DNA from: Sipunculus nudus
Taxonomy: Eukaryota; Annelida; Sipuncula; Golfingiida; Sipunculidae
Direction of reading: 5' to 3'
Length of the DNA: 64,000 bases
NCBI GenBank assembly: GCA_026874595.1
Contig: CM049320.1
Span: 54,091,070 to 54,155,069 of the forward strand
The translations under genes and the position numbers were made by a program. Below, one piece after another: positions 15,383 through 57,381 of the stretch; the first letter of the stretch is position 1, and every line of letters starts with the position of its first letter. The notes beneath the pieces were generated by a model. The model was not told the origin of the DNA. It searched no databases and worked only from the letters and a program-made list of their open reading frames with translations.

Positions 15383-15412
15383 CTGGACATGTTGGACTTT
15401 CAGTTGTTGACC
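15383..15412 (-). CDS. PT exon, 30 nt (STTESPTCP)
   Basis: Acceptor tttctttacaaag, donor GTGAGT. Phase 1 at both ends, encoding STTESPTCP. It is the last PT exon before the vWD domain. Its 5' half was copied into each 3-kb array unit as a decayed exon. Confidence 0.65.
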
Positions 15413-16083
15413 CTTTGTAAAGAAATGAGTCCGACATAAAATACTCTGTTTGAATATCAGTCAACAAGCATTAGGATTAATATCATTATCACTATGTATT
15501 TTCCGTTCCATAAGGTATTGGATTTTATAGAAAGAGACTGGGTAAAGCGAATTACATGTTTTATCATTATCATAACGTTGTAAGTATTATTGGAAACAAT
15601 AAACGTTCAAAAATGTAATAAAATAATAATGAGTTAACTTTCCCATAAATATTATTGTTGTTGTATTTCACACCAAAAGAATCTTTATATTTCATAATCC
15701 ATTCTATGAAAGCAATAAACAAAGAGTCAATAAACTGTAACTGTATAAAGTAATTCTATACATGAAAAATTACGATATATATATATATTAATATCATTAT
15801 CACTATGTATTTTCCGTTCCATAAGGTATTGGATTTTATAGAAAGAGACTGGGTAAAGCGAATTACATGTTTTATCATTATCATAACGTTGTAAGTATTA
15901 TTGGAAACAATAAACGTTCAAAAATGTAATAAAATAATAATGAGTTAACTTTCCCATAAATATTATTGTTGTTGTATTTCACACCAAAAGAATCTTTATA
16001 TTTCATAATCCATTCTATGAAAGCAATAAACAAAGAGTCAATAAACTGTAACTGTATAAAGTAATTCTATACATGAAAAATTA

Positions 16084-16086
<3 letters not shown>

Positions 16087-16126
<40 letters not shown>
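16087..16126. repeat. (AT)n microsatellite
   Basis: AT run at the end of 311-bp repeat copy 2. Confidence 0.9.
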
Positions 16127-16127
<1 letters not shown>

Positions 16128-16347
16128 CTTGAGATAATAAATTATCATAATGTTGTAAGTATTATTGGAAACAATAAACGTTCAAAAATGTAATAAAATA
16201 ATAATGAGTTAACTTTCCCATAAATATTATTGTTGTTGTATTTCACACCAAAAGAATCTTTATATTTCATAATCCATTCTATGAAAGCAATAAACAAAGA
16301 GTCAATAAACTGTAACTGTATAAAGTAATTCTATACATGAAAAATTA

Positions 16348-16349
<2 letters not shown>

Positions 16350-16402
<53 letters not shown>
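16350..16402. repeat. (AT)n microsatellite
   Basis: AT run at the end of copy 3 and at the tail of the adjacent minus-oriented Penelope-like fragment. Confidence 0.9.
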
Positions 16403-16408
<6 letters not shown>

Positions 16409-16592
16409 AGTGTTACCCTCCGATGTAAAGTGCTCTTTGGCCTACAGACTAGGCCAGAGCGGTATAACTCTGAAGAAAAACAACAAAATTAATTCACAAC
16501 AATCTGTTTTACGGGATGCGACCCGATCATCAGGTGAATGTGGTTAGAATCTAATTTCTAACCACATTCACATAATTTCTAACCACATTCAG
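16403..16592 (-). mobile_element. Penelope-like terminal fragment with hammerhead-like core, copy 1
   Basis: On the minus strand a hammerhead-like core reads CTGATGA (16533-16527), then a CGGG/CCCG stem around TCGCAT, then AAAA where GAAA is expected. About 100 bp and an (AT)n tail follow. A 16-bp perfect inverted repeat (16534-16549 with 16556-16571, gtgaatgtggttagaa) abuts the core, and a third arm copy starts at 16577. This is the layout of Penelope-like terminal repeats; the family call is inference. A second copy lies at 19,560-19,750. Confidence 0.45.
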
Positions 16593-17579
16593 TTGTTGAC
16601 CCTTTGTAAAGAAATGAGTCCGATATAAAATGGTCTGTTTGAATATCAGCCAAAAAGTATACGGTTTAATATCATGATCTGTATGTATTTCCCGTTTAAT
16701 AAACCATTGGATATTGTAGAAAGAGACTGTGTTCAAGCTAATTAAATGTTTTAATATTATAATTGTGCTGGTATTCTTGGAAACAATAAGCGTTCCTAAA
16801 AGTTATATAATTATGAGTCAACTTGATCATAAAAAAATTTTTTATTAATAATCAAAAATTTATATTGATCATTGAATGAAACTATTTCACTGGCAAGGTT
16901 ACGTCTATTCATAAGAAATTGTGAGCGTATCATTGTGTGCTTGCGTAAAATGTGTAAGCAAATAACATTAATGATCTCAAGGAAAATCTCAGCCAAACCT
17001 TTAAAAGAAAATGGTTTTTTTTTTCAAATAAAGAATATTAAAAAAATTGAAAATTATTTATGTCCACATTATTCATGTGTTAACTTTCATTAATTTAGTA
17101 CTCAAATGGCAGCGGACATAATTTGTCCGACATTAAATAGTTCACCTATCCGCTGGAGTATATTTTAAAAAGCTGTGACGCTTATTCGAACATGGACGGA
17201 AAAATGAGACACGAAATGATTTAAGATTAGTTTGCAAAGTTCTATAATAAGCTGAGGACCCTTCACCATTTGTTGTATATTTTTAAACAATAAAATTTGT
17301 TTTTTTTTTATCCATGATATAATAACATTATGCAAAAAAAGGTATTGAACAAAGAAACTATTGATATAAAGGATTAATCGCAGTTTTACTTTTTATAGCT
17401 ATATGGTAATTAATGGAAACCATTTAACTAGCAATTACAATCTATCCACAGAAATAAAAATTCCAGAAAAAAAAATCAAATACAATATGTTGTTTTCCTT
17501 TAAATGTACATTATCGGCATACGGGAAATTATAAATATTCCCATTATTCTGTGTTAATCATCATCCATTAAGTACTCAC

Positions 17580-17663
17580 AAATCGGCGGCGTAGTAATGT
17601 CTGTAACTGTACTTGTATAACTTGCTGTAGTATTGGCGTCTACACTTGTATTCATTATGGTCA
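17580..17663 (-). CDS. PT exon, 84 nt, array unit 1
   Basis: Acceptor ttttacag, donor GTGAGT, phase 1/1. It encodes 27 residues, TTMNTSVDANTTASY through TPPI, which are Thr/Ser/Asn-rich with N-glycosylation sequons. Compared with units 2 and 3 it has V for T and S for N substitutions. Confidence 0.7.
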
Positions 17664-17890
17664 CTGTAAAACAAATGTGTCCGACATTTAATATGCTGTC
17701 TATATCACCCAACATGCATCAGGTTTAAAAGTATATATATTCCTACTTTATGTTGACAAGATTTTTATGCCTTAGTATTTGTTAAGTATCTTCCACCTTA
17801 CGGAACTTATTTAATTTTTAATGCCGTTTGGTATTTCGAATTTAAAAGGAAACATTAAAAAGTGTTAAGACAATCACATTGGTCTCAATG

Positions 17891-18000
17891 GACTTTACCA
17901 GGGCTGTACCAGCCGTATGGAATACACTTCCGGAGCACATGAGACGTTGTTAATACAATGAAAGTCATATAAAACACATTTATTCAGAACTACTATCACA
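17891..18000 (+). pseudogene. CR1-like LINE C-terminal fossil, array unit 1
   Basis: The plus strand reads FTRAVPAVWNTLPEHMRR, then degenerate HIK-H sequence. This resembles the 'raAPrlWNsLPe.lR...FK..LKThLF' tail at the C-terminus of many CR1/jockey-type LINE proteins. No reverse transcriptase remains. Confidence 0.55.
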
Positions 18001-18194
18001 TGAATTATATACAACAATCTCATTGAATGTTATTTTTATTATTTTAAATATAATTTACTTTAAGTCTCTTCAGTCTTCCTTTTAATCAGGTAAGGATCTT
18101 ATTATATTCTGTTTTAATTTAAGAATATCATTTTTAGGATCTTTATAACACATTCGCGGCCAAGCTAAATATTCTCTGAGTGCAACGCCCTGCA

Positions 18195-18196
<2 letters not shown>

Positions 18197-18256
<60 letters not shown>
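18197..18256. repeat. (GA)n microsatellite
   Basis: Long GA run; the same position is shorter in unit 2 (about 21,424-21,462) and unit 3 (about 24,285-24,315). Confidence 0.95.
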
Positions 18257-18261
<5 letters not shown>

Positions 18262-19490
18262 TAGAGAGGGGGGAGGGGAAACGTTTACACCAGGCCCGGC
18301 AAAGTCAAGGGGCTCACGCAATAGCGGCTCCTGTACACGGCCCGATCGATCGTTGATATATTAGTGAAAATAATAGGTGGAGATTTAAAAAACGTCACGG
18401 TAGTAATCATGTATGATTATCAAACTATTTCACTTTCTTGATTTTTATGGAACATGATAGGGTTTGTGTCCCATTCTACTTTGTGGTTGCTATAAACATT
18501 CTACTTGCACGTGTGGAAATAAGACACAGGGGTTATGAAGTTGCTCGATTGAATACCGCGCAAGTCCGATTCCACCATCTGTCTTTTTATTTTTCCTTCA
18601 TTTTATAAACTGGTATTTTTACTGCAAAAAAAATTTGTTTTTACTTTCATTACGAACATCCTGATTGTATTGTACCAATCAAAATTGTATTATCTTATAT
18701 TACACACAGTGATAGAGCTTTTTAGATACTGAGGTGGTAGCATGATGCAATGGACTTCGTCATTATCACCGTCAAACTAAGTCGGGAAATGTACTAAAAC
18801 TGCGTGTGATCAAAGTGTAACTTAATATGATCAACACTACGGTTTATTGTAAAATACTATATAAAGATTTGCCTGAAAGTCATAAGTCGGGTTTGCCTTT
18901 GCTGAATTCTAAAGTGCGGTTGGGAATGCCGGTATAGGGCTAACATGTTCCGCAAGTGATCGTCCGAGATTGCTTTCAGAATTTATCAATTTACATGCAC
19001 TTGTTGGCGAAGGTACTTATACATGTTTATTGCTATCTTTAAATATATAAGATACGTGAAATAACTCCAAATAAGCCAAACCAATAATTTGAATCCGCGT
19101 TCTGATTACCCTGCCTATCTGTGTGTCGGTTATTTTGGACGCGACCTTTAGTTGATTGCGCATGAGGCAGTCCTCACGGGGTAATAAGCCTGGAGGACCT
19201 CATGCTTCGCCATCTCGTGTTCACATCTAAAGTGTGATGTGTCACAACTTGGTCTCACAAGCGGGTTTGCCGAAAGTTAGTGGCCAAAATACGCCCAAAT
19301 ATAAAACTAGACACATTTTTTTACGGTCCTCGGTGTTGTTTAATTTTAAGGAATACTCCTTCATGAAATCAATTTTACACAATTTTGTATTTTACACCAA
19401 AAATATCTATAATTTCATAATCCATTCTATAAAAGCATTAAACAAAGAGTCAATAAACTTGGAAAGTATTTCTATACATGAAAATTTACG

Positions 19491-19492
<2 letters not shown>

Positions 19493-19562
<70 letters not shown>
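19493..19562. repeat. (AT)n microsatellite
   Basis: Interrupted AT run between unit 1 and the second Penelope-like fragment. Confidence 0.9.
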
Positions 19563-19563
<1 letters not shown>

Positions 19564-19750
19564 TATATATAGAAAGTAGTGTTACCCTCCGATGTAAAGT
19601 GCTCTTTGGCCTACAGAGCTGTAAAACTCTTAAGTAAAACAACAAAATTAATTCACAACAATCTGTATTACGGGATGCGACCCGATCATCAGGTGAATGT
19701 GGTTAGAATCTAATTTCTAACCACATTCACATGATTTCTAACCACATTCA
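19563..19750 (-). mobile_element. Penelope-like terminal fragment with hammerhead-like core, copy 2
   Basis: Duplicate of 16,403-16,592. CTGATGA at 19692-19686, the same CGGG/CCCG stem, then TAAT in place of GAAA. The same hairpin arms are at 19,693-19,730. Confidence 0.45.
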
Positions 19751-20263
19751 GTTGTTGACCTTTTGTAAAGAAATGAGTTCGATATAAAAAGGTCTGTTTG
19801 AATATCAGCCAAAAAGTATCAGGTTTAATATCATGATCTGTATGTCTTTCCCGTTTAATAAACCATCGGATATTGTAGAAAGAGACTGTGTTCAAGCTAG
19901 TTAAATGTTTTAATAATATGATGGTGCTGGTATTCTTGGAAACAATAAGGGTTCCTAAAAATTATATAATTATAAGTCAACTTGATCATTAAAAAATCTT
20001 TTATTAATAATCAAAAATTTATATTGATCATTGAATGAAACTATTTCACTGTCAAGGATAGGTCTATTCATAAGAAATTGTGAGCGTATCATTGTGTGCT
20101 TGCGTAAAATTTGTAAGCAAATAACATTAATGATCTCAAGGAAAATCTCAGCCAAACCTTTCAAAGAAAATGTTTTTTTTTTTTAAATGAAGTATATTAA
20201 GAAATTGAAAATTATTTATGTCCACATTATTCATGTGTTAACTTTCATAAATTTAGTACTCAC

Positions 20264-20275
20264 CTGGCTGCGGAC
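20264..20275 (-). CDS. Putative 12-nt micro-exon, unit 2
   Basis: Acceptor 'caaattag' and donor GTGAGT leave only GTCCGCAGCCAG, phase 1/1, adding PQP. It is the 3' end of the 36-nt PT exon type, whose 5' part and original acceptor were deleted. Splice sites and frame survive, but use of so small an exon is uncertain. Confidence 0.3.
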
Positions 20276-20808
20276 CTAATTTGTCCGACATAAAATAGTT
20301 TACATATCCGCTACCAAGAATTAGATTTTAATATTTGTGATGAGTATGTATTTCCATTTTTAATTTCACAAGATTTTATGCCTCAGCTTTGTGGAGTATA
20401 TTTTAAAAAGCTGTGACGCTTATTCGAACATGGACGGAAAAATGAGACACGAAATGATTTAAGATTAGTTTGCATAATTAGCTGAGGACCCTTCACCATT
20501 TGTTGTATATTTTTTTAACAATAAAATTTGTTTTTTTTTTATCCATGATATAATAACATTATGCCAAAAAGGTATTGAACCAAGAAATCATTGATATAAA
20601 GTATTAATGGCAATTTTACTTTTTATAGCTATATGGTAATTAATGGAAACCATTTAACTAGCAATGATAATCTATTCACAGAAATAAAAATTCCAGAAAA
20701 AAAATCAAATACAATATGTTGTTTTCCTTTAGATGTACATTATCAGCATACGGGAAATTATAAATATTCCCATTATTCTGTGTTAATCATCATCCATTAA
20801 GTACTCAC

Positions 20809-20892
20809 ATATCGGTGGCGTAGTAATGTCTGTAACTGTACTTGTATAATTTGCTGTAGTGTTGGCATCTGTACTTGTATTCATTGTGGTCA
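20809..20892 (-). CDS. PT exon, 84 nt, array unit 2
   Basis: Acceptor ttttacag, donor GTGAGT, phase 1/1. Encodes TTMNTSTDANTTANY through VTDITTPPI. By eye its protein sequence equals that of the unit 3 copy. Confidence 0.7.
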
Positions 20893-21120
20893 CTGTAAAA
20901 CAAATGTGTCCGACATTTAATATGCTGTCTATATCAGCCAACATGCATCAGGTTTAAAATAATATATATTTCCTACTTTATGTTGACAAGATTTTTATGC
21001 CTTAGTATTTGTTAAGTGTCTTACACCTAACGGAACTTGTTTAATTTTTAATGCCGTTTGGTATTTCGAATTTAAAAGAAAACATAAAAAAGTGTTAAAA
21101 CAATCACATTGGTGTCAATG

Positions 21121-21230
21121 GACTTCATTAGGGCTGTACCAGCCGTATGGAATACATTTCCGGAGCACATGAGACGTTAATACAATGAAAGTCACATAAA
21201 ATCACATTTATTCAGAACTACTATCACATG
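21121..21230 (+). pseudogene. CR1-like LINE C-terminal fossil, unit 2
   Basis: Reads FIRAVPAVWNTFPEHMRR; orthologous to the unit 1 fossil at the same distance (about 230 bp) from the 84-nt exon. Confidence 0.5.
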
Positions 21231-23116
21231 AATTATATACAACAATCTCATTGAATGTTATTTTTATCATTTTAAATATAATTTAGTTTAAGTCTCTTCA
21301 GTCTTCCTTTCAATCAGGTAAGGATCTTATTATATTCTGTTTTAATTTAGGAATATCATTTTTAGGATCTTTATAACACATTCGCGGCCAAGCTAAATAT
21401 TCTCTGGGTGCAACGCCCTGCAGCAGAGAGAAAGAGAGAGGGGATAGAGAGAGAGAGAGAGGAGGGGAAATGTTTACACCAGGCCCGGCAAAGTCAAGGG
21501 GCTCACGCAATAGCGGCTCCTGTACACGCCCCGATCGACCGTTGATATATTAGTGAAAATAATAGATGGAGATTTAAAAACCGTCACGGTAGTAATCATG
21601 TATGATTATCAAACTATTTCACTTTCTTGATTTTTATGGAACATGATAGGGTTCGTGTCCCATTCTACTTTGTGGTTGCTATAAGCATTCCACTTGCACG
21701 TGTGGAAATAAGACACAGGGGTTATGAAGTTGCTCGATTGAATACTGCGCAAGTCCGATTCCTCCATGTGCCTTTTTATTTTTCCTTCATTTTATAAACT
21801 GGTATTTTTACTGCAAAAAAAATTGTTTTTACTTTCATTACAAACGTCCTAATTGTATTTAACCAATCAAAATTGTTTTATCTTATATTACACACAGTGA
21901 TAGAGCTTTTTAGATACTGAGGTGGTAGCATGATGCAATGGACTTCGTCATTATCACCGTCAAACTAAGTCGGGAAATGTACTAAAACTGCGTGTGATCA
22001 AAGTGTAACCTAATATGATCAACACTACGGTTTATTGTATAATACTATATAAAGATTTGTCTGAAAGTCATAAGTCGGGTTTGCCTTTGCTGAATTCTAA
22101 AGTGCGGTTGGGAATGCCGGTATAGGGCTAACATGTTCCGCAAGTGATCGTCTGAGTTTTCTTTCAGAATTTATCAATTTACATACACTTGTTGGCGAAG
22201 GTACTTAAACATGTTTATTGCTATCTTTAAATGTATAAGATACGTGAAATAACTCCAAATAAGCCAAACCAATAATTTGAATCCGCGTTCTGATTACCCT
22301 GCCGATCTGTGTGTCAGTTATTTGGGACGCGCCCTTTAGTTGATTGCGCATGAGGCAATCCTCACGGTGTAATAAACCTGAAGGACCTCATGCTTCGCCA
22401 TCTCGTGTTCACACCTAAAGTGTGATCTGTCCCACCTTGGTCTCACAAGCGGGTTTGCCGAAAGTTAGTGGCCAAAATACGCCCAAATATAAAACTAGAC
22501 ACATTTTTTACGGTCCCCACTGTTGTTTAGTTCTAAGGAATACTCCTTCATGGAATCAATGTTACACAATTTTGTATTTTACATAATCTAATTATTTAAC
22601 CACATTCAGTTGTTGACCCTTTGTAAAGAAATGAGTCCTATATAAAATGGTCTGTTTGAATATCAGCCAAAAAGTATCAGGTTTAATATCATGATCTGTA
22701 TTTATTTCCTGTTTAATAAACCATTGGATATTGTAGAAAGAGACTATGTTCAAGCTAATTAAATGTTTTAATATTTTAATGGTGCTGGTATTCTTGGAAA
22801 CAATAAGCGTTCCTAAAAGTTATATAATTATGAGTCAACTTGATCATAAAAAAATCTTTTATTAATAATCCATAATTTATATTGATCATTGAATAAAACT
22901 ATTTCACTGGCAAGGATAGGTCTATTCATAAGAAATTGTGAGCGTATCATTGTGTGCTTGCGTTAAATGTGTAAGCAAATAACATTAATGATCTCAAGGA
23001 AAATCTCAGCCAAACCTTTCAAAGAAAATTTTTTTTTTAATGAAGAATATTAAGAAATTGAAAATTATTTATGTCCACATTATTCATGTGTTAACTTTCA
23101 TTAATTTAGTACTCAC

Positions 23117-23128
23117 CTGGCGGCGGAC
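23117..23128 (-). CDS. Putative 12-nt micro-exon, unit 3
   Basis: Acceptor 'caaattag', donor GTGAGT, GTCCGCCGCCAG, phase 1/1, adding PPP. Same origin as the unit 2 micro-exon. Confidence 0.3.
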
Positions 23129-23666
23129 CTAATTTGTCCGACATAAAATAGTTTACATATCCGCTACCAAGAATTAGATTTTAATATTTGTGATGAGTAT
23201 GTATTTCCATTTTTAATTTCACAAGATTTTATGCCTCAGCTTTGTGGAGTATATTTTAAAAAGCTGTGACGCTTATTCGAACATGGACGGAAAAATGAGA
23301 CACGAAATCATTTGAGATTAGTTTGCAAAGTTCTATAATTAGATGAGGACCCTTCACCATTTGTTGTATATTTTTTTAACAATAAAATTTGTTTTATTTA
23401 TCCATGATATAATAACATTATGCAAAAAAGGTATTGAACCAAGAAATTATTGATATAAAGGATTAATGACAATTTTACTTTTTATAGCTATATGGTAATT
23501 GATGGAAACCATTGAACTAGCAATGATAATATATTCACAGAAATAAAAATTCCAGAAAAATATCAAATACAATATGTTGTTTTCCTTTAAATGTACATTA
23601 TCGGCATACGGGAAATTATAAATATTCCCATTATTCTGTGTTAATCATCATCCATTAAGTACTCAC

Positions 23667-23750
23667 ATATCGGTGGCGTAGTAATGTCTGTAACTGTACT
23701 TGTATAATTTGCTGTAGTGTTGGCATCTGTACTTGTATTCATTGTGGTCA
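23667..23750 (-). CDS. PT exon, 84 nt, array unit 3
   Basis: Acceptor ttttacag, donor GTGAGT, phase 1/1. Protein TTMNTSTDANTTANY through TPPI. Confidence 0.7.
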
Positions 23751-23978
23751 CTGTAAAACAAATGTGTCCGACATTTAATATGCTGTCTATATCAGACAAC
23801 ATGCATCAGGTTTAAAATAATATATATTTCCTACTTTATGTTGACAAGATTTTTATGCCTTAGTATTTGTTAAGTGTCTTACACCTAACGGAACTTATTT
23901 AATTTTTAATGCCGTTTGGTATTTAGAATTTAAAAGAAAACATAAAAAAGTGTTAAGACAATCACATTGTTGTCAATG

Positions 23979-24090
23979 GACTTCACCAGGGCTGTACCAG
24001 CCGTATGGAATACACTTCCGGAGCACATGAGACGTTGTTAATACAATAATAGTCATATAAAACACATTTATTCAGAACTACTATCACATG
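23979..24090 (+). pseudogene. CR1-like LINE C-terminal fossil, unit 3
   Basis: Reads FTRAVPAVWNTLPEHMRR; the third tandem copy of the same fossil. Confidence 0.5.
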
Positions 24091-25415
24091 AATTATATTC
24101 AACAATCTCTCTGAATGTTTTTATTATTATTTTAAATATAATTTAGTTTAAGTCTCTTCAGTCTTCCTTTTAATCAGGTAAGGATCTTATTATATTCTGT
24201 TTTAATTTAAGAGTATTATTTTTAGGATCTTTATAACACATTAGCGGCCAAGCTAAATATTCTCTGAGTGCAACGCCCTGCAGCAGAGAGAAAGAGAGAG
24301 AGAGAGAGAGAGAGGAGGGGAAATGTTTACACCAGGCCCGGCAAAGTCAAGGGGCTCACGCAATAGCGGCTCCTGTACACGCCCCGATCGACCGTTGATA
24401 TATTAGTGAAAATAATAGATGGAGATTTAAAAACCGTCACGGTAGTAATCATGTATGATTATCAAACTATTTCACTTTCTTGATTTTTATGGAACATGAT
24501 AGGGTTCGTGTCCCATTCTACTTTGTGGTTGCTATAAGCATTCCACTTGCACGTGTGGAAATAAGACACAGGGGTTATGAAGTTGCTCGATTGAATACTG
24601 CGCAAGTCCGATTCCACCATGTGCCTTTTTATTTTTCCTTCATTTTATAAACTGGTATTTTTACTGCAAAAAAAAATTGTTTTTACTTTCATTACAAACA
24701 TCCTAAATGTATTTAACCAATCAAAATTGTATTATCTTATATTACACACAGTGATAGAGCTTTTTAGATACTGAGGTGGTAGCATGATGCAATGGACTTC
24801 GTCATTATCACCGTCAAACTAAGTCGGGAAATGTACTAAAACTGCGTGTGATCAAAGTGTAACCTAATATGATCAACACTACGGTTTATTGTATAATACT
24901 ATATAAAGATTTGTCTGAAAGTCATAAGTCGGGTTTGCCTTTGCTGAATTCTAAAGTGCGGTTGGGAATGCCGGTATAGGGCTAACATGTTCCGCAAGTG
25001 ATCGTCTGAGTTTTCTTTCAGAATTTATCAATTTACATACACTTGTTGGCGAAGGTACTTAAACATGTTTATTGCTATCTTTAAATGTATAAGATACGTG
25101 AAATAACTCCAAATAAGCCAAACCAATAATTTGAATCCGCGTTCTGATTACCCTGCCGATCTGTGTGTCAGTTATTTGGGACGCGCCCTTTAGTTGATTC
25201 CGCATGAGGCAGTCCTCACGGGGTAATAAGCCTGAAGGACCTTATGCTTCGCCATCTCGTGTTCACACCCAAAGTGTGATGTGTCACACCTTGGTCTCAC
25301 AAGCGGGTTTGCCGAAAGTTAGTGGCCAAAATACGCCCAAATATAAAACTAGACACATTTTTTTACGGTCCTCGCTGTTGTTTAATTAGGAATACTCCAT
25401 TGAATCAATTTTAAA

Positions 25416-26177: not shown

Positions 26178-26216
26178 CTTGCCATGGCGGAGTTGTAGGC
26201 CTTGGAGAGGTTGGCT
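26178..26216 (-). CDS. PT exon, 39 nt (PTSPRPTTPPWQ)
   Basis: Acceptor ttcttttacaaag, donor GTGAGT, phase 1/1. The WQ ending differs from the SP of its sister exon at 27651. Confidence 0.7.
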
Positions 26217-26339
26217 CTTTGTAAAAGAAATGAACCCGACGTAAACAATTAAACAAACTGTTCTATTTTAAATGGAAAATATATTGAAATGGAAAAAATA
26301 TAAATATCTACATTAATAATGTGCTAACTGTCATTCCTT

Positions 26340-26372
26340 ATGTATAGCTGTTGGCCCTATGTAAAACAAATA
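26340..26372 (-). pseudogene. Decayed PT exon, donor half lost
   Basis: An intact acceptor (gttttacatag) is followed by GGCCAACAGC, then intron-like sequence and an in-frame TGA; no donor. The same deletion junction occurs at about 33,840. Confidence 0.5.
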
Positions 26373-27239: not shown

Positions 27240-27383
27240 TTCCCTATATTTAAATATACACTTCCCACTTAATTACCAACTGACGAAGAAGTCTTTGTAC
27301 TTCGAAAGCTCTTGTGTTAATAAACTAGTTAGTTTATCTAAAAGGCATCACTGTTTATCTAAAATTTCGCTATATATATATAT

Positions 27384-27415
<32 letters not shown>

Positions 27416-28669: not shown

Positions 28670-28716
28670 TGTATATACACAGGCTGACTGCCGTAGTAAG
28701 CCGGCAGTTCCTGAGC

Positions 28717-46594: not shown

Positions 46595-47685
46595 GCCTGA
46601 TGTCACAAAAATGACTTTACTGAAGTTTTCCATTTCTCTATAAATGAGAGAAGGATATAAAAATAATTAAATCTTTAAAAAATAACCATTTGTGTTAATT
46701 TCCTTTAGAAAGGGTAACCAGCTTCTACAATATATTTTTTGTTTGCAGTTACTAGCCTTTATATTTTGTAGTAAGATATTTGACTGGAAAGAAATGCTGG
46801 ACGCGTTAAAAAAGAACTCCTAAATTTTAGTATCAGAAACAAAAACAAAATACGGCGAAATATAAGTTCCTTAATTTTTACAATTAAGCATAATGTTGAC
46901 ATTTCCTTTTTCACAAGGTATGAGGTTTCGTTCATTTAATTTGTATGTTTTTTCTGGGGATGACATACCTTGAGCATATTTATGTTAGCAAACGGATAAA
47001 GTCTGTCACGTGCCCACGTGAAACGGATAGGAGATTAGTTTTTGTAGAAAACAGTGTTTAATACAGGCATGCCAGCTTAAGAGTTACCTGGGTGATTTGT
47101 TGAGATTGCTTTAAAAATTAATTCTACTCAACTAAAGGCGAAACGTTGAATTAAGTATAAAGATTTATCATATGTTGAAAGATTCTGTGACTAATGTTAA
47201 ATTAAAGTTGAAATGAAATGTTATTTGCGGAAACGACCGGTCCGTTGGTTTCCAATAATGTATCGGGACACGTCCGACTGGAAAGAAATGTGGGACGTTT
47301 GAAAAAAAAAACTTTATAATTTTAGTGTCAGAAACAAAAACAAAATATGACAAAATATGAGTTCATAAGTTTTTTTCAATTAAGCATAAAGGTGACACTT
47401 CCCTTTTCATAAGGTATGAGGTTTCGTTCATTTAATTTGTATCTATTTCTTGGGATTACATACCTTCAGCATATTTATGTTAGGAAACGCATATAGTCCA
47501 GGTGCTACTTAACAGAGTTGGAATAACCAATCCCAAAATAACTGTGGTAAATAGGTTTAAAAAATAGTATGTTAATTTTTCTCGAAAGATCAATCTCGGC
47601 AAGTGATCAATTATATTTTTTTCCGTATTCCTTTCGTTAACTATCAGAGGTTTCGTACTAATTTGTCGTCGCAGTTAGTACTGAC

Positions 47686-47745
47686 CTGGCGCTGCTGGTG
47701 TTGTAGTTGGGGCAGGTGGAGGTGCCGGTGTTGTGGTCGGAGGCA
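47686..47745 (-). CDS. PT exon, 60 nt, array copy (consensus)
   Basis: Acceptor tttcttcgcag, donor GTCAGT, phase 1/1. Encodes PPTTTPAPPPAPTTTPAAP. Confidence 0.75.
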
Positions 47746-48678
47746 CTGCGAAGAAACAAATGCAGTCGACATAAAACATTCTTTTGATTATCAGCCTACA
47801 AGCATTATGTTTGTCAGTATGATCAGTATATATTCCCGGATAATGAGTTAATTGTTGGAAATTACTGGTTCAATATTCTTTTTTTTATTTTATTTGTACT
47901 TACCAACATATGATTTATTTTCGTGAGTTCTAATATAATAATACATGCCTTCTTACGATAAAGAGAGGGGCAAAGAGAATAAGTTTGTGACAATCTAACG
48001 TACGTGCCCACTTGAAACGGATAGGAGAGTTCTTTTTGTAGAAAACAGAGTTAAATGCAGTCATGCCAGCTTAAGAGTTACCTTGGTGATTTGTTGAGAT
48101 TGCTTTAAAAAATAATTCTACTCAAATAAAGGCAAAAGGTTGAATTAAGTAAAAAGATTTAATATATGTTGACAGTTTCTGTGACTAATGTTAAATTAAA
48201 CTTGAAATGAAATGTTATTTGCGGAAACGACCTGTCCGTTGGTTTCCAATAATGTATCGGGAAACGTCCGACTGGAAAGAAATGTGGGACGATTGAAAAG
48301 AAAAGAACTTTATAATTTTAGTGTCAGAAACAAAAACAAAATATGACGAAATATCAGTTCCTTAGTTTTTTCAATTAAGCATAAAGGTGACATTTCCCTT
48401 TTCATAAGGTATGAGGTTTCGTTCCATTAATTTGTATCTATTTCTGGGAATTACATACCTTCAGCATATTTATGTTAGCAAACGGATATAGTCCAGGTGC
48501 TACTTAACAGAGTTGGAATAACCAATCCCAAATAACTGTGGTAAATAGGTTTAAAAATAGTATGTTAATTTTTCTCGAAAGATCAATCTCGGCAAGTGAT
48601 CAATTATATTTTTTTCCGTATTCCTTTTGTTAACTATCAGATGTTTCGTACTAATTTGTCGTCGCAGTTAGTACTAAC

Positions 48679-48738
48679 CTGGCGCTGCTGGTGTTGTAGT
48701 TGGGGCAGGTGGAGGTGCCGGTGTTGTGGTCGGAGGCA
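48679..48738 (-). CDS. PT exon, 60 nt, array copy
   Basis: Same peptide as 47686; donor is GTTAGT. Confidence 0.75.
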
Positions 48739-49669
48739 CTGCGAAGAAACAAATGCATTCGACATAAAACATTCTTTTGATTATCAGCCAACAAGCATCA
48801 GGTTTGTCAGTATGATTAGTATATATTCCCGGATAATGAGTTAATTGTTGGAAATTACTGGTTCAATATTCTTTTTTATTTTATTTGTACGTACCAACAT
48901 ATGCTTTATTTTCGTGAGTTCTAATATAATAATACATGCCTTCTTACGATAAAGAGAGGAGCAAATAGAATAAGTTTGTGACAATCTAACGTACGTGCCC
49001 ACGTCAAACGGATAGGATAGTTCTTTTTGTAGAAAACAGAGTTAAATGCACCAATGCCAGCTTAAGAGTTACCTTGGTGATTTGTTGAGATTTCTTTCAA
49101 AAATAATTCTACTCAAATAAAGTCGAAAGGTTGAATTAAGTATAAAGATTTAATATATGTTGACAGATTCTGTGACTAATGTTAAATTAAACTTGAAATG
49201 ATATGTTATTTGCGGAAACGACCTGTCCGTTGGTTTCCAATAGTGTATCGGGAAACGTCCGACTGGAAAGAAATGTGGGACGATTGAAAAAAAAGAACTT
49301 TATAATTTTAGTGTCAGAAACAAAAACAAAATATGACGAAATATCAGTTCCTTAGTTTTTTCAATTAAGCATAAAGGTGACATATCCCTTTTCATAAGGT
49401 ATGAGGTTTCGTTCATTTAATTTGTATCTATTTCTGGGGATTACATACCTTCAGCATATTTATGTTAGCAAACGGATATAGTCCAGGTGCTACTTAACAG
49501 AGTTGGAATAACCAATCCCAAAATAACTGTGGTCAATAGGTTTAAAAATAGTATGTTAATTTTTCTCGAAAGATCAATCTCGGCAAGTGATCAATTATAT
49601 TTTTTTCCGTATTCCTTTTGTTAACTATCAGATGTAACGTACTAATTTGTCGTCGCAGTTAGTACTAAC

Positions 49670-49729
49670 CTGGCGCTGCTGGTGTTGTAGTTGGGGCAGG
49701 TGGAGGTGCCGGTGTTGTGGTCGGAGGCA
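49670..49729 (-). CDS. PT exon, 60 nt, array copy
   Basis: Consensus peptide; donor GTTAGT. Confidence 0.75.
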
Positions 49730-50661
49730 CTGCGAAGAAACAAATGCATTCGACATAAAACATTCTTTTGATTATCAGCCAACAAGCATCAGGTTTGTCA
49801 GTATGATTAGTATATATTCCCGGATAATGAGTTAATTGTTGGAAATTACTGGTTCAATATTCTTTTTTATTTTATTTGTACGTACCAACATATTATTTAT
49901 TTTCGTGAGTTCTAATATAATAATACATGCCTTCTTACGATAAAGAGAGGAGCAAATAGAATATGTTTGTGACAATCTAACGTACGTGCCCACGTCAAAC
50001 GGATAGGATAGTTCTTTTTGTAGAAAACAGAGTTAAATGCACCAATGCCAGCTTAAGAGTTACCTTGGTGATTTGTTGAGATTTCTTTAAAAAATAATTC
50101 TACTCAAATAAAGTCGAAAGGTTGAATTAAGTATAAAGATTTAATATATGTTGACAGATTCTGTGACTAATGTTAAATTAAACTTGAAATGATATGTTAT
50201 TTGCGGAAACGACCTGTCCGTTGGTTTCCAATAATGTATCGGGAAACGTCCGACTGGAAAGAAATGTGGGACGATTGAAAAAAAAAGAACTTTATAATTT
50301 TAGTGTCAGAAACAAAAACAAAATATGACGAAATATCAGTTCCTTAGTTTTTTCAATTAAGCATAAAGGTGACATATCCCTTTTCATAAGGTATGAGGTT
50401 TCGTTCATTTAATTTGTATCTATTTCTGGGGATTACATACCTTCAGCATATTTATGTTAGCAAACGGATATAGTCCAGGTGCTACTTAACAGAGTTGGAA
50501 TAACCAATCCCAAAATAACTGTGGTCAAAAGGTTTAAAAATAGTATGTTAATTTTTCTCGAAAGATCAATCTCGGCAAGTGATCAATTATATTTTTTTCC
50601 GTATTCCTTTCGTTAACTATCAGAGGTTTTGTACTAATTTGTCGTCGCAGTTAGTACTGAC

Positions 50662-50721
50662 CTGGCGCTGCTGGTGTTGTAGTTGGGGCAGGTGGAGGTG
50701 CCGGTGTTGTGGTCGGAGGCA
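50662..50721 (-). CDS. PT exon, 60 nt, array copy
   Basis: Consensus peptide; donor GTCAGT, as in copies 47686 and 55835. Confidence 0.75.
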
Positions 50722-51100
50722 CTGCGAAGAAACAAATGCATTCGACAAAAAACATTCTGTTGATTATCAGCCAACAAGCATCAGGTTTGTCAGTATGATC
50801 AATATATATTCCCGGATGATGAGATAATTGTTGGAAATTACTGGTCCAATATTCTTTTTTATTTTATTTGTATGTACCAACAGATGATTTATTTTCGTGA
50901 GTTCTAATATAATAATACATGCCATTTTACGATAAAGAGAGGGGCAAACTGAATAAGTTTGTGACATTCTAACGTACGTGCCCACGTGGAACGGATAGGA
51001 GAGTTTTTTTTGTAGAAAACAGTGTTAAATGCAGGCATGCCTGCTTAAGATTTCTCTGGGTGATATGTTGAGATTGCTTTGAAAATTAATTCTACTCAAC

Positions 51101-53283
51101 AAGAACATGCTTTGATAAGAATATTCTTTATGAGCTCCGCCAGTTTATACAGGGGTGTGTTTCAATAACTTTCTAAATGACTTAAGCCAAAGCCCGGCAC
51201 TAAAGCCCGAAAACAGACTTGCCTAAGTCAAATAGATAAGTCCGTTTCAATAAAAATGGTTTAAAAATACAGACTTTAGCCAGACTCAGCGCCATCTGTC
51301 GGCAGACAGTTATTAGAATAAAATTATATAGACTAGACAATTATATAGACTAGAAGAGACAACATATACTTTAAATAGGGTCATTAACACTATGTGGATG
51401 CAAGATTTTTACCGTAATGGCTCTAGACTTAAATATTGCACTTATTAATATATGTCTGACTAAATGTTTCAAGTGACATGTCATGGAAACTTACATTTTG
51501 CACTTCAACAACACTTGTTAATGGGTAATTATTTTCTTATATCTATAGTTCAATAATATTTTAATAGTAACAGCCAAGGCTATCTGCACGACGGTCGTGC
51601 CAATAAGAAGTAAAATCCGCACGACGGCCTCTCATATTATAATATAGAATCTAACAATAGGCTGGTAACCCCCGCCTCAGCAATACATTAAGTTGAAATT
51701 TGTAGTTTTTGCTGGCTGATTTACGCAAACTTTAACACGAAAATACTTTAATATATACAATTAAAACGCAATCGGTGTATAACAATAAACTGGAGAAGCC
51801 TGGGCCGGGCCAAATAAACGAACTATCCTTGGCCAGCTGCCAAGGCTGATTTCTTCACCGATCTGGTGGCATGTTTATCTCTGTTCATCAGGTGAGTTTG
51901 TTTTTCTTGTTGTCAATTTCCAAACAATTATCATTACTCATGAACTAATTAAATAGTAAACTATTAGAATATTCAGTGTAAGATATATTTGAGAATGTAG
52001 GGCGGTCGTGCGGATAGACAGTACCAAGAGTGTCATCTAATATCACTTAAAATAATATGAGAAACGTGTTAATCTCCGTTTTTTGAGGGGATTAATTATT
52101 TTACTTTATTTTTATACTTAAATCACGTAGCAGTCAGGGTGGATAGTTAGATGAAGGATATTATAGTAATTTATTTGTTGCAATTGATACCTTCGTAAGA
52201 TACTCACGTAAATCGAACATAATTAAATAGAATAACATCTCGAACAAAACCTGTTTGGTTCAGGTTAACACAAGGTTGTCAAGGACATTTTATTTAGCCA
52301 CCTGCATCTGCAAAAACATATGCCAGTTATACTGAGTTAATATATATTTGCAACTGTTTAGATGCACTGTTTCATAGGCCTCTTAATATATTTTGTACTT
52401 CGCCCGCCCAGCCCCTCATGGATTGCCTGTGTACCGCTGACAGTTGCACAACGAGCATCAGAATGACAGTTATTGGCAATTGACAGGCAGTCAATGCATG
52501 AATCTCCCTGTCAAAAACCGAAAGGGATAGAGTGGGTCTCGACATTGCGCCTATCAAGTTCAATTTCGTGAAGAATACGCCTCAAAACTGTGTAAAGTGG
52601 CTATTTTTCTGACTTAAGCCCCGAAATAGCAGGTCTGGAGGTCAAGCCCCAAACTGACTTAAGTCATTTTTTTTGTATTTTATGGAAACAGGTTTAATTC
52701 TTTAGATGGGTGACTGAAGTCAAAATCGACCATTTTTGGGCTTAAGTCAGTTAATTGAAACACCTCCCGCCTGATGTCACAAAAATGACTTTTCCTGAAG
52801 TTTTCAATTTCTCTATAAATTAGAGAAGAATATAAAAATTAAATCTTTAAAAAATAACCATCTGTGTTAATTTCCTTTAGAAAGGGTTACCAGCTTCTAC
52901 AATATATTTTTGTTTGCAGTTACTAGTCTTTATATTTTGTAGTAAGATATTTGACTGGAAAGAAATGCTGGACGCGTGAAAAAAGAACTCTTCAATTTAA
53001 GTGTCAGAAACAAAAACTAAATATGACGAAACATGAGTTCTTAAGATTTTTTCAATTAAGCATAATGGTGACATTTCCCTTTTCATAAGGTATGAGGTTT
53101 CGTTCAGTTAATTTGTATCTGTTTCTGGGGATTACATACCTTGAGCATATTTATGTTAGCAAACGGATAAAGTATGTTACGTGCCCACGTGAAACGGATA
53201 GGAGACTAGTTTTTGTACAAAACAGTGTTAAATACAGGCATGCCAGCTTAAGAGTTTCCTGGGTGATTTGTTGAGATTGCTTT
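51101..53283. repeat. Segmental duplication, copy 2, inserted in the array
   Basis: Colinear copy of 44,971-47,127 lying between the fourth and fifth array exons, which raises their spacing from 992 to 3,186 bp. Confidence 0.85.
51151..52768. mobile_element. Putative TIR DNA element, copy 2
   Basis: Right end GGGAGGTGTTTCAATTAACT and left end AGGGGTGTGTTTCAATAACT match better here than in copy 1. The element moved with the segmental duplication, not by its own transposition. Confidence 0.45.
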
Positions 53284-53449
53284 AAAAATTAAATCCATGA
53301 CCTTGATTTTTAAATAAATCTTATTTCTTTACGGAAGGTGTCAGAAACATATTTCAAATAATATACCTTTTTCACTTTTTTCAACGGAGAATATCAGGAA
53401 ATGGGAAAGTGCAACTATCTGGGCAATGCATTCGTTAATACTATTCCTT

Positions 53450-53530
53450 AACATCCAATATGTTATCACCGGACATGTATTACGGGAAACAGTTTGCTGG
53501 TGTTGTATTCGAAGCTACTATGTACAATCA
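53450..53530 (-). pseudogene. Decayed exon of a third 60-nt subtype
   Basis: Acceptor tgtacatag then TAGCTTCGAATACAACACCA; the 3' part is disrupted and has no donor. Related to the relics at 57914, 58983 and 59725. Confidence 0.45.
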
Positions 53531-53847
53531 TGTCTACTTTTGACATAAATATATTGTTCACACTATTTTGATCTGTTTATTTTGCTGGTCTGTTTTTATT
53601 AAACCTCACATAAAACATCCATTATTTTTCCGAGGTATTCCACTAAAGGCGATACGTTAAATTAAGTATTAAAATTTAATATATATAGGAATATTCTGTG
53701 ACTAATTGTAGATGAACTCGAAATGAAAAAAATAAATAAAGTTTGTTTATCTTTCTCAAAAGATCAATCTCGGCAAAAGATCCATTTTAATCATTTCGCT
53801 AACTATCAGAGGTTTTGTACTAATTTGTCGTCGCAGTTAGAACTAAC

Positions 53848-53907
53848 CTGGCGCTGCTGCTGTTGTAGTTGGGGCAGGTGGAGGTGCCGGTGTTGTGGTC
53901 GGAGGCA
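53848..53907 (-). CDS. PT exon, 60 nt, array copy with P-to-A change
   Basis: Donor GTTAGT. PPTTTPAPPPAPTTTAAAP. Confidence 0.75.
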
Positions 53908-54839
53908 CTGCGAAGAAACAAATGCATTCGACATTAAACATTCTGTTGATTATCAGCCAACAAGCATCAGGTTTGTCAGTATGATCAGTATATTCTCGGA
54001 TAATGAGTTAATTGTTGGAAATTACTGGTTGAATATTCTTTTTTTATTTTATTTGTACGTACCAACATATGATTTATTTTCGTGAGTTCTAATATAATAA
54101 TACATGCCTTCTTACGATAAAGAGAGGGGCAAAGAGAATAAGTTTGTGACAATCTAAAATACGTGCCCACGTGAAACGGATAGGAGAGTTCTTTTTGTAG
54201 AAAACAGAGTTAAATGCAGGTATGGCAGCTTAAGAGTTACCTTGGTGATTTGTTGAGATTGCTTTAAAAAATAATTCTACTCAAATAAAGGCGAAAGGTT
54301 GAATTAAGTATAAAGATTAAATATATGTTGACAGATTCTGTGTCTAATGTTAAATTAAACTTGAAATGAAATGTTATTTGCGGAAACGACCTGTCCGTTG
54401 GTTTCCAATAATGTATCGGGAAACGTCCGACCGGAAAGAAATGTGGGACGATTGAAAAAAAAAGAACTTTATAATTTTAGTGTCAGAAACAAAAACAAAA
54501 TATGACGAAATATCAGTTCCTTAGTTTTTTCAATTAAGCATAAAGGTGACATTTCCCTTTTCATAAGCTATGAGGTTTCGTTCATTTAATTTGTATCTAT
54601 TTCTGGGGATTACATACCTTCAGCATATTTATGTTAGCAAACGGATATAGTCCAGGTGCTACTTAACAGAGTTGGAATAACCAATCCCAAAATAACTGTG
54701 GTAAATAGGTTTAAAAAATAGTATGTTAATTTTTCTCGAAAGATCAATCTCGGCAAGTGATCAATTATATTTTTTTCCGTATTCCTTTCGTTAACTATCG
54801 GGGGTTTCGTACTAATTTGTCGTCGCAGTTAGTACTAAC

Positions 54840-54899
54840 CTGGCGCTGCTGGTGTTGTAGTTGGGGCAGGTGGAGGTGCCGGTGTTGTGGTCGGAGGCA
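54840..54899 (-). CDS. PT exon, 60 nt, array copy
   Basis: Consensus peptide; acceptor ttttcttcgcag, donor GTTAGT. Confidence 0.75.
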
Positions 54900-55834
54900 C
54901 TGCGAAGAAAAAAATGCATTCGACATAAAACATTCTGTTGATTATCAGCCAACAAGCATCAGGTTTGTCAGTATGATCAGTATATATTCCCGGAAAATGA
55001 GTTAATTGTTGGAAATTACTGGTTGAATATTTTTTTTTTATTTTATTTGTAGGTACCAACATATGATTTATTTTCGTGAGTTCTGATATAATAATACATG
55101 CCTTCTTACGATAAAGAGAGGGGCAAGCAGAATAAGTTTGTGACATTCTAACGTACGTGCCCACGTGAAACGGATAGGAGAGTTCTTTTTGTAGAAAACA
55201 GAGTTAAATGCAGGCATGCCAGCTTAAGAGTAAATTGGGTGATTTTTTTAGATTTCTTGAAAAATTAATTCTACTCAACTAAAGGCGAAAGGTTGAATTA
55301 AGTATAAAGATTTAATATATGTTGACAGATCCTGTGACTAATGTTAAATTAAACTTGAAATGAAATGTTATTTGCGGAAACGACCTGCCCGTTGGTTTCC
55401 AATAATTTATCGGGAAACGTCCGACTGGAAAGAAATATGGGACGATTGAAAAAAAAAAGAACTTTATAATTTTAGTGTCAGAAACAAAAACAATATATGA
55501 CGAAATATCAGTTCCTTAGTTTTTTCAATTAAGCAAAAAGGTGACATTTCACTTTTCAAAGGGTATGAGGTTTCGTTCATTTAATTTGTATCTATTTCTG
55601 GGGATTACATACCTTCAGCATATTTATGTTAGCAAACGGATATAGTCCAGGTGCTACTTAACAGAGTTGGAATAACCAATCCCAAAATAACTGTGGTAAA
55701 TAGGTTTAAAAAATAGTATGTTAATTTTTCTCGAAATATCAATCTCTGCATGTGATCAATTATATTTTTTTCCGTTTTCCTTTCGTTAACTATCAGAGGT
55801 TTTGTACTAATTTGTCGTCGCAGTTAGTACTGAC

Positions 55835-55894
55835 CTGGCGCTGCTGGTGTTGTAGTTGGGGCAGGTAGAGGTGCCGGTGTTGTGGTCGGAGGCA
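55835..55894 (-). CDS. PT exon, 60 nt, array copy with P-to-L change
   Basis: PPTTTPAPLPAPTTTPAAP; donor GTCAGT. Confidence 0.75.
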
Positions 55895-57321
55895 CTGCGA
55901 AGAAACAAATGCATTCGACATAAAACATTCTGTTGATTATCAGCCAACAAGCATCAGGTTTGGCAGTATGATCAGTATATATTCCCGGATAATGAGTTAA
56001 TTGTTTGAAATTACTGGTTAAATATTCTTTTTTATTTTATTTGTACGTACCAACATATGATTTATTTTCGTGAGTTCTAATATAATAATACATGCCTTCT
56101 TTCGATAAAGAGAGGGGCAAACAGAATAAGTTTGTGACAATCTAACGTACGTGCCCGCGTCAAACGGATAGGAGAGTTCTTTTTGTAGAAAACAGATTTA
56201 AATGCAGGCATGCCAGCTTGAGAGTTAATTAGGTGATTTGTTGAGATTGCCTTAAAAATTAATTCTACTCAACTAAAGGCGAAACGTTGAATTAAGTATA
56301 AAGATTTTATATATGTTGACAGATTCTGTGACTAATGATAAATTAACGTGAAATGAAATGTTATATGCGGAAACGACCTGTCCCTTGGTTTCCAATAATG
56401 TATCGGAAAACGTCCGACTAGAAAGAAATGTAGGACGTTTGACAAAAAAAGAACTTTATAATTTTAGTGTCAGAAACAAAAACAAAATATGACGAAATAT
56501 GAGTTCCTAAGCTTTTTCAATTAAGCATAAAGGTGGCATTTCCCTTTTCATAAGGTATGAGGTTTTGTTCATTTAATGTGTATATTTTCTATGGATTACA
56601 TACCTTGAGCATATTTATTTTAGCAAACGGATAAAGTATGTTACGTGCCCACGTGAAACGGATAGGAGATTTGTTTTTGTAGAAAACAGTGTTAAATACA
56701 AGCATGCCAGCTTAAGAGTTAATTAGGTAATTTGTTGAGATTGCTTTAAAATTAATTCTACTCAACTAAAGGCGAAACGTTGAATTAAGTATAAAGATTT
56801 AATATATGTTGACAGATTCTGTGACTAATGTTAAATTAAACTTGAAATGAAATGTTATTTGCGGAAACGACCTGTCCGTTGGTTTCCAATAATGTATCGG
56901 GAAACGTCCGACTGGAAAGAAATGTGGGACGATTGAAAAAAAAAAACTTTATAATTTTAGTGTCAGAAACAAAAACAAAATATGACGAAATATCAGTTCC
57001 TTAGTTTTTTCAATTAAGCATAAAGGTGACATTTCCCTTTTCATAAGGTATGAGGTTTCGTTCGATTAATTTGTATCTATTTCTGGGGATTACATACCTT
57101 TAGCATATTTATGTTAGCAAACGGATATAGTCCAGGTGCTACTTAACAGAGTTGGAATAACCAATCCCAAAATAACTGTGGTTAATAGGTTTAATAAAAC
57201 AGTATGTAAATTTTTCTCGAAATATCAATCTCGGCAAGTGATCAATTATATTTTTTTTCCGTATTCCTTTCGTTAACTATCAGAGGTTTTGTACTAATTT
57301 GTCGCCGCAGTTAGTACTAAC

Positions 57322-57381
57322 CTGACGCTGCCGGTGTTGTAGTTGGGGCAGGTGGAAGTGTCGGTGTTGTGGTCGGAAGCA
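57322..57381 (-). CDS. PT exon, 60 nt, most 5' and most divergent array copy
   Basis: LPTTTPTLPPAPTTTPAAS; the acceptor is 'tttgttcgaag', weaker than the usual cgcag; donor GTTAGT. Phase 1/1 retained. Confidence 0.65.

Follow-up and report, generated by a model that had tools for sequence, protein, structure and literature searches.

A Pro/Thr-rich array of phase-1 micro-exons in Sipunculus nudus, a candidate split domain of a mucin-like gene

Exons and domains at the locus

The window, a stretch of 64,000 nucleotides from Sipunculus nudus, contains on its minus strand exactly 22 Pro/Thr exons between positions 15383 and 57381 (Table 1). They are 30, 36, 39, 60, 84 or 87 nt long, each is flanked by phase-1 introns, and in genomic order they join to 1206 nt, or 402 codons, free of stops. 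The donor is GT in 21 of the 22 (GT-AG introns) and GC in one, the 87-nt exon. The original prediction of at least 22 phase-1 exons on one strand, with lengths divisible by three and 402 residues in total, was reproduced in full, and the composition of these exons is 32% Pro, 30% Thr and 5% Ser. These predicted exons support a mucin-like PTS domain that is divided among symmetric phase-1 micro-exons. Decayed exon relics and exons for VWD and C8 domains, both missed in the earlier reading, lie on the same strand.

Table 1. Features of the window (positions in window numbering)
Feature	Position	Strand	Remarks
60-nt Pro/Thr exon (LPTTTPTLPPAPTTTPAAS)	57322..57381	-	GT-AG, phase 1-1, open
60-nt exon (PPTTTPAPLPAPTTTPAAP)	55835..55894	-	
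60-nt exon (PPTTTPAPPPAPTTTPAAP)	54840..54899	-	
60-nt exon	53848..53907	-	
60-nt exon	50662..50721	-	
60-nt exon	49670..49729	-	
60-nt exon	48679..48738	-	
60-nt exon	47686..47745	-	
60-nt exon (PHVTTPGDTPAKTTTPPTT)	44666..44725	-	diverged; donor gttggtaa
39-nt exon (PNSPKPTTAPPP)	41619..41657	-	
87-nt exon	37064..37150	-	N-glycosylation sequons; least certain exon because of its non-canonical GC donor (gcgagt)
36-nt exon (PTTPCPTCPPP)	35637..35672	-	Cys-bearing
36-nt exon (PSTPCPKCPPP)	34995..35030	-	Cys-bearing
36-nt exon (PTTPCPTFPPP)	33485..33520	-	one Cys
36-nt exon (PTTPCPTCPPP)	32162..32197	-	Cys-bearing
36-nt exon (PSTPCPTCPSP)	31651..31686	-	Cys-bearing
39-nt exon (PTSPRPTTPPSP)	27651..27689	-	
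39-nt exon (PTSPRPTTPPWQ)	26178..26216	-	
84-nt exon	23667..23750	-	N-glycosylation sequons
84-nt exon	20809..20892	-	sequence identical to exon 23667..23750
84-nt exon	17580..17663	-	diverged copy
30-nt exon (STTESPTCP)	15383..15412	-	final array exon ahead of VWD
Ten decayed homologous sites	~16591, 19750, 20278, 22608, 23131, 26346, 31790, 33845, 36667, 42434 (16591..42468)	-	loss of exon or splice sites with the intron motif retained; weak match at 42434 (E 0.22)
992-bp exon-plus-intron tandem units	47534..57492	-	8 exon-core copies; 95–99% identity (5 units compared)
Three tandem units of ~2.9–3.2 kb	16580..24968	-	84-nt exon with decayed relics
VWD domain exon, first half	7653..7897	-	Pfam VWD 1e-7; phase-1 acceptor, phase-0 donor
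Tentative second VWD exon	6935..7138	-	weak; VWD-like residues, ends LTGLCGNCNGK
C8 domain exon	4911..5200	-	Pfam C8 1.4e-8; boundaries by eye

The phase-1 acceptor of the VWD exon is the phase that the array demands. The tentative second VWD exon gave no Pfam match, and consists of a single 11-residue tblastn match (E 0.49) and a remainder read by eye, in which the reading frame seems interrupted. VWD matches number one on the contig of the window and at least 125 in the genome, with 150 of the 284 candidates scored and the 5′ end of the gene not reached. TIL matches are absent from this contig, compared with 82 genome-wide (E ≤0.1). Because the second VWD part is weak and seemingly interrupted, and the contig has no TIL, the 3′ module may represent a relic, or a gene of its own.

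The Pro/Thr exons are short and were chosen by eye, which leaves room for chance or an artefact of exon selection. A loose exon scan of the window gave 27 overlapping candidates, all of them on the minus strand, and a stricter scan found 19 on the minus strand versus none in each of 20 dinucleotide shuffles. The stricter scan also found none in 12 other loci of the same genome (70,432 strand-bases; eight of the loci chosen for a Pro/Thr-like pattern), and in the 294 kb around the window it returned 47 minus-strand and 4 plus-strand candidates. Three of these four are homologous exons ~25 kb below the window start, which later served as training members of a profile but had been detected independently beforehand; one of the three is also a weak match to the first profile (E 0.079; E 0.26). 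A strict weighted splice-site scan gave few exons because its thresholds were too high. The CCNACNACNACNCC pattern is not enriched genome-wide relative to a backward control (1040 and 831 versus 1061 and 1051), and is therefore useless for locating further arrays. With no candidates in any shuffle, homologous flanks, and a frame that is kept even where donors were chosen blind to it (see below), an origin by chance or selection artefact is highly improbable.

Extent and ancestry of the array

A profile of the acceptor region identified 73 homologous minus-strand sites in the 294 kb around the window, a count that leaves out matches with E ≥0.5 and two plus-strand matches. Both splice sites are present at 50 of these, and 49 of the 50 are in frame and open, i.e., intact GT-AG exons. 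Donors were called as the first fit to the consensus without regard to frame, the form GTTGGTA having joined the pattern after one exon had been seen, and the GC-donor exon stands outside the 49. The other 23 sites lack one or both splice sites; two of them are in frame, a figure that is partly circular where the donor is lost and that is not counted as evidence. Taken over all 50 exons, the composition shifts to 42% Thr, 23% Pro and 3% Ser.

The window itself holds 32 homologous sites (22 intact and 10 decayed), and 13 of the 41 upstream sites are broken or uncertain. The extent first proposed, 15383–57381, is too small, since the array runs on along the same strand for at least 125 kb past 57381, with the last intact exon at 182,366 and the last relic at ~191,000 in window numbering. 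Two exon-poor gaps of ~31 kb each, at 69.8–101 kb and 126.6–157.5 kb, interrupt the upstream part.

Nor are the exons independent units: they are homologous, partly as recent tandem copies, and their sequences indicate that all array exons descend from one exon-plus-intron unit. Besides the tandem units of the window, there are 22 units of 888 bp with a mean identity of 94.6% and five of ~1410 bp with a mean identity of 93.6%; within the 888-bp array, copies that have lost the donor have themselves been multiplied (5 copies). A dispersed transposable element was considered as the source of the repeats and rejected, as all 20 matches of a 113-nt acceptor-plus-exon query to the 1.43-Gb genome lie in the window. 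The same query also missed the diverged upstream and plus-strand copies, so that diverged arrays may exist elsewhere in the genome.

Constraint on the exons and the proposed gene

Indel runs in pairwise comparisons of 23 aligned exons (hand-chosen representatives without the 84/87-nt family) are multiples of three in 56 of 56 cases, versus 94 of 602 in the flanking introns. Of the 513 residues that 30 distinct exons encode, 426 are Pro, Thr, Ser or Ala, versus 400.4 ± 5.6 under a neutral simulation of the length classes 36, 39, 54, 60 and 84 (30 of the 32 distinct exons), and none of 5000 simulations reached 426. As the copies are not independent, both sets of figures overstate the number of events. 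The absence of stop codons is not by itself significant (1.3 expected, P 0.26), and neither codon positions nor pN/pS pointed to constraint on the exact residues (pN/pS 0.92, from 36 synonymous and 72 non-synonymous changes over 25 tree edges). Conservation in the 36/39/30-nt set is not clearly higher in the exons than in the introns close by (0.755 for the exon, 0.69–0.84 for the downstream intron). These results indicate that the Pro/Thr/Ser/Ala composition is kept beyond neutral expectation and that the exact sequence is not. Ordered pairs of window exons join without creating a stop codon in 227 of 231 cases, so that exon skipping would rarely break the frame; among all 50 exons, only 7 of 1225 ordered pairs create a stop at the junction.

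Searches for the 5′ end and for other domains covered part of the locus. A signal-peptide scan of 150–214 kb yielded a single distinct candidate on the minus strand; the plus strand, which served as control, yielded two, and none of the three is convincing. In the three minus-strand frames of six 10-kb stretches, Pfam returned only sub-threshold low-complexity matches beyond VWD and C8, and neither SEA nor EGF; the plus strand of two stretches, in a scan of the same type, had nothing above threshold. Of the 33 long ORFs in 57.5–214 kb, ten were examined, and their matches, one of them to a reverse transcriptase, all fell below threshold; the three frames of the gap stretch at 134–144 kb had no domain match above threshold.

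Building on what can be read from the sequence (exon structure, common ancestry, the keeping of frame and composition, the in-phase VWD exon and the C8 exon), we consider that the locus probably covers the middle and 3′ portions of a single, very long gene on the minus strand, which would encode a mucin-like glycoprotein, either secreted or displayed at the surface. Once transcribed and joined into one mRNA, ~50 intact phase-1/phase-1 micro-exons of 30–87 nt, spread over ~167 kb, would supply the PTS domain, followed by the VWD and then the C8 exons, and the product would be O-glycosylated and act in mucus or at the surface. Repeated tandem duplication of a single ancestral exon, together with the intron sequence beside it, would have built the array, and local exon families would then have diverged into Thr-rich, Pro-rich, Cys-bearing and N-glycosylation-sequon-bearing modules. 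Since every module begins and ends in phase 1, its gain, loss or skipping keeps the frame, and copies with a lost splice site could drop out of the transcript; splicing may also be variable.

A pN/pS close to one, the broken or uncertain sites in the window and upstream, the multiplication of donor-lost copies, one set in which the near introns match the exons in similarity, and a tentative second VWD exon whose frame seems interrupted all speak for a decaying array, a formerly expressed mucin gene that is now a pseudogene or barely expressed and spreads as exon-intron satellite DNA. This reading is rather unlikely when set against the open frame in nearly all splice-competent copies and a composition maintained above neutral expectation; many of the broken copies, moreover, have lost a splice site, which is tolerable for a phase-1 exon.

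It is less probable still, and on balance doubtful, that the VWD-C8 end, the exons at 15–57 kb and those at 101–182 kb belong to different transcripts of at least two genes, or that the Pro/Thr array encodes an elastic or structural extracellular protein instead of a mucin. Such a division could be read from the long exon-poor gaps, from the homologous plus-strand cluster, which places related exons outside the minus-strand array, and from the failure to find a signal peptide or SEA in the scanned stretches. Against it, strand, phase and ancestor are the same throughout the array, the parts of the gaps that were examined contain sub-threshold matches only, and the Thr and Pro contents are mucin-like.

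Comparison with other split-repeat proteins

The reading of the locus as one mucin-like gene retains, from the original prediction, the split PTS domain, and the VWD and C8 exons downstream also fit a mucin-type protein. The suggestion of an undescribed layout is not supported, since chicken Muc13 (PMC1552070) and Schistosoma mansoni SmPoMuc (PMC2576457) are precedents. Mucin PTS domains usually lie in one large repetitive exon. According to Lang et al. (2006, PMC1552070), the PTS repeats of chicken Muc13, at least 12 in number and 20 residues long, each occupy their own exon, and length control by exon skipping was already proposed there; an unpublished note in the same paper describes the zebrafish Muc13 PTS as multi-exon as well. 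In that text mucins combine a PTS domain with VWD or SEA. A Pro/Thr/Ser-rich region is present in the exons here, and the VWD exon downstream would be the candidate partner domain. As in Muc13, each predicted exon corresponds to one PTS repeat unit, of 20 residues in the 60-nt exons. Muc13, as described there, is a transmembrane mucin with SEA and EGF domains, and its repeats (at least 12) are near-identical. The present locus differs in its ~50 intact exons, which fall into eight lengths and several chemistries, in the presence of VWD-C8, and in having no SEA in the scanned stretches.

SmPoMuc, as described in the available text of PMC2576457, is a multi-gene family with 15 exons in complete genes, in which a 27-bp repeat exon (exon 2) lies in ~1-kb exon-plus-intron tandem units with near-identical, homogenised introns (>93–94%); up to 20 genomic copies are given, and 1 to 100 repeats per transcript. 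A small repeat exon within a ~1-kb tandem unit with conserved introns is likewise seen here (888-bp, 992-bp and ~1410-bp units). Unlike the present locus, SmPoMuc has no VWD-C8 described in that text.

The order of a PTS region followed by VWD and C8 (Pfam) resembles the gel-forming mucins MUC2/MUC5/MUC6 and relatives. These have three N-terminal VWD domains, compared with the single match on this contig, and TIL after C8, which the contig lacks. Their PTS region occupies one large exon in the available text of PMC1552070, and is split here.

Many short symmetric exons that permit splicing-based tuning of length also occur in titin PEVK and elastin. Composition and protein class are different in these, and the likeness is one of layout, with no homology claimed. 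Within the available parts of the mucin and titin/elastin literature searched, no split PTS array of this size was found. Relative to Muc13 and SmPoMuc, this locus is set apart by its size, by the variety of exon chemistries derived from a single ancestor, and by its association with VWD-C8.

A bolder and rather speculative extension, to which we give limited credence, is a splicing-programmed mucin with ~50 interchangeable modules, most of them led by a conserved intronic block of ~100 nt that would coordinate inclusion, so that length, cross-linking (Cys modules) and sugar load (N-glycan modules) would vary by tissue or individual. If true, its split PTS domain would exceed those of Muc13 and SmPoMuc in size and variety. 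Because the repeat units are separate exons, the birth, divergence, homogenisation and death of each can be traced individually, and both copy number and splicing could determine how many repeats there are. If supported by RNA, the locus would provide a testable case of splicing control over both the length and the chemistry of a mucin.

Extent and ancestry of the exon array

As predicted originally, 22 Pro/Thr exons with phase-1 boundaries on one strand encode 402 residues, and this result is reproduced exactly: joined in genomic order, the exons comprise 1206 nt and 402 codons with zero stops, both boundaries are in phase 1 in 22 of 22, and the donor is GT in 21 and GCGAGT in one, an 87-nt exon that is the least certain of the set. 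If its GC donor is left unused, the 87-nt exon extends to a hydrophobic tail, GILGIFIISNFLILYI, followed by a stop; this is possibly an alternative membrane-anchored end, or chance.

In most exon families, about 90–100 nt of the intron 5' of the exon is similar. Within this block the word TGAT is largely conserved at two places, about 45 nt and about 60 nt ahead of the acceptor, and these words could hold a branch point. A profile of the acceptor block identifies 73 minus-strand sites (E < 0.5) in the 294 kb of contiguous chromosome scanned. The window contains 32 of these (22 intact, including the one with a GC donor, and 10 decayed), and the remaining 41 lie upstream and reach window coordinate 191,000 (28 intact, 13 broken or uncertain). 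The 50 intact exons, again counting the GC-donor exon, read without a stop through 926 residues and, judged by the positions of the intact sites, therefore cover 15,383 to 182,366, or about 167 kb. The exons of the original prediction are thus in place, but the array is larger than the extent it proposed.

In a tree of the sites, grouping follows location, and duplication has therefore been mostly local. Tandem units of 888 bp (n = 22, identity 85.7–99.8%), 992 bp, about 1410 bp and about 3 kb are present, the 888-bp array being located upstream of the window. Five 888-bp copies have a donor-destroying change in common, and four of these alternate with intact copies, a partial alternation that resembles a two-unit higher-order repeat. 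Furthermore, three homologous 60-nt phase-1 Pro/Thr exons on the plus strand, about 25 kb before the window begins, are a relative that is convergent with the main array.

Coordinates of the predicted features (window coordinates)
Feature	Position	Strand	Remarks
Plus-strand exon trio	-25517 to -22500	plus	L012, a stretch of the same contig (C15) at about 54.066–54.069 Mb
C8 exon	4911–5200	minus	Pfam 1.4e-8
Tentative second VWD exon	6935–7138	minus	11-residue paralogue match, E 0.49; VWD-like residues by eye
VWD exon	7653–7897	minus	Pfam 1e-7; phase-1 acceptor, matching the requirement of the array
LINE-like retrotransposon	9420–12933	plus	RVT_1 1.6e-11, zf-RVT 7.9e-9
22 exons in the window	15383–57381	minus	
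Hydrophobic extension of the 87-nt exon	36984–37193	minus	
87-nt exon	37064–37150	minus	GC donor
888-bp array	107,000–126,740		22 units (stretches L019, L020 and L025)

Chance and coding character

Under strict scan criteria, Pro/Thr-rich phase-1 exons number 19 on the minus strand of the window, against none in any of 20 dinucleotide shuffles and none at 12 further loci from this genome. A looser scan of the window, in which candidates overlap, gives 27 on the minus strand versus 0 on the plus strand. Across the 294 kb, the strict scan finds 47 minus-strand versus 4 plus-strand exons; three of these four are homologous to array exons, and the fourth looks like chance.

With the donor taken as the first fit to the consensus, disregarding frame, 49 of the 50 sites with both splice sites are open and have a length that is a multiple of three (32 distinct sequences among the 49). 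Among 23 aligned representatives, pairwise indel runs are divisible by three in 56 of 56 cases in exons versus 94 of 602 in flanking introns, these runs stemming from few independent events. Exon similarity is 0.75 in both aligned sets. In the 54/57/60-nt set, the introns score 0.57–0.77 near the exon and about 0.46–0.58 farther off; for the 36/39/30-nt exons, values drop to about 0.45 in the upstream intron and hold at 0.69–0.84 in the downstream intron, so that exons are not clearly more similar than the nearby introns. The absence of stops in the exons, taken alone, is not significant against neutral simulation (P 0.26). Pro, Thr, Ser and Ala account for 426 of 513 exon residues versus 400.4 ± 5.6 under a simple neutral simulation, and 0 of 5000 runs reach 426, although this simulation is optimistic because the consensus is used as ancestor and copies are taken as independent. 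At a pN/pS of 0.92, the exact residues show no constraint, whereas the content of Pro, Thr, Ser and Ala is constrained. Such kept composition with free sequence would be the pattern expected of a mucin-type domain.

The VWD and C8 exons and the assembly

The LINE-like element is presumed to lie inside the intron that separates the last array exon from VWD. The tentative second VWD exon, situated between the VWD and C8 exons, has no Pfam match and, in the sequence as assembled, contains an apparent change of frame, which would reflect either an assembly error or real decay. Among the matches listed, none is a second VWD match on the contig of the window, and a genome-wide TIL search (82 matches) gives none there. 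A search for the 5' end of the gene did not find it. The 1.43-Gb S. nudus genome has a large VWD family: at least 125 VWD, at least 53 C8 and at least 82 TIL matches are present, many of them clustered (for example on contigs C8, C11, C13 and C16).

As for the assembly itself, bacterial terminal oxidase genes occur on contigs C60, C61, C62, C66, C72, C74, C75, C89 and C123. COX1 gives nine near-equal matches over eight contigs, one of which was examined over its full length, and among the 80 loci kept, relatives of the bacterial COX1 are just 52–58% identical. Contig C123 carries a separate operon, which we read as resembling a cbb3 oxidase. The oxidase-bearing contigs are either symbiont or contaminant.

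Split mucins and the proposed working of the modules

In chicken Muc13, the PTS domain has one repeat per exon, the repeats being 20 residues long and at least 12 in number, and splicing is already suggested as a control of length (PMC1552070). SmPoMuc of Schistosoma mansoni is described as having a 27-bp repeat exon in units of about 1 kb, with up to 20 copies and transcripts that carry 1 to 100 repeats, and is compared by its authors to spider silk genes (PMC2576457). Because of these precedents, the split-PTS kind is already known, and the mucin reading of the original prediction is partly supported, for the layout of the array but not for its novelty. Compared with Muc13 and SmPoMuc, the S. 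nudus array is distinct in its size, in the variety of exon types that arose from a single ancestor, and in its VWD-C8 context, three features for which no match was found in the literature searched.

Because of the phase-1 symmetry, the reading frame would survive the skipping, loss or doubling of a module; of the 1225 ordered exon pairs, 1218 create no stop when joined. Copies that lack a splice site could leave the transcript silently. The modules are mainly ordered, 5' to 3', as Thr-rich 60-/54-nt, Pro-rich 60-nt, Cys-bearing 36-nt and N-sequon 84-nt exons, with the 87-nt exon placed among the 36/39-nt exons. This order suggests that a bottle-brush region, some of it cross-linkable and some N-glycosylated, would precede the VWD-C8 part.
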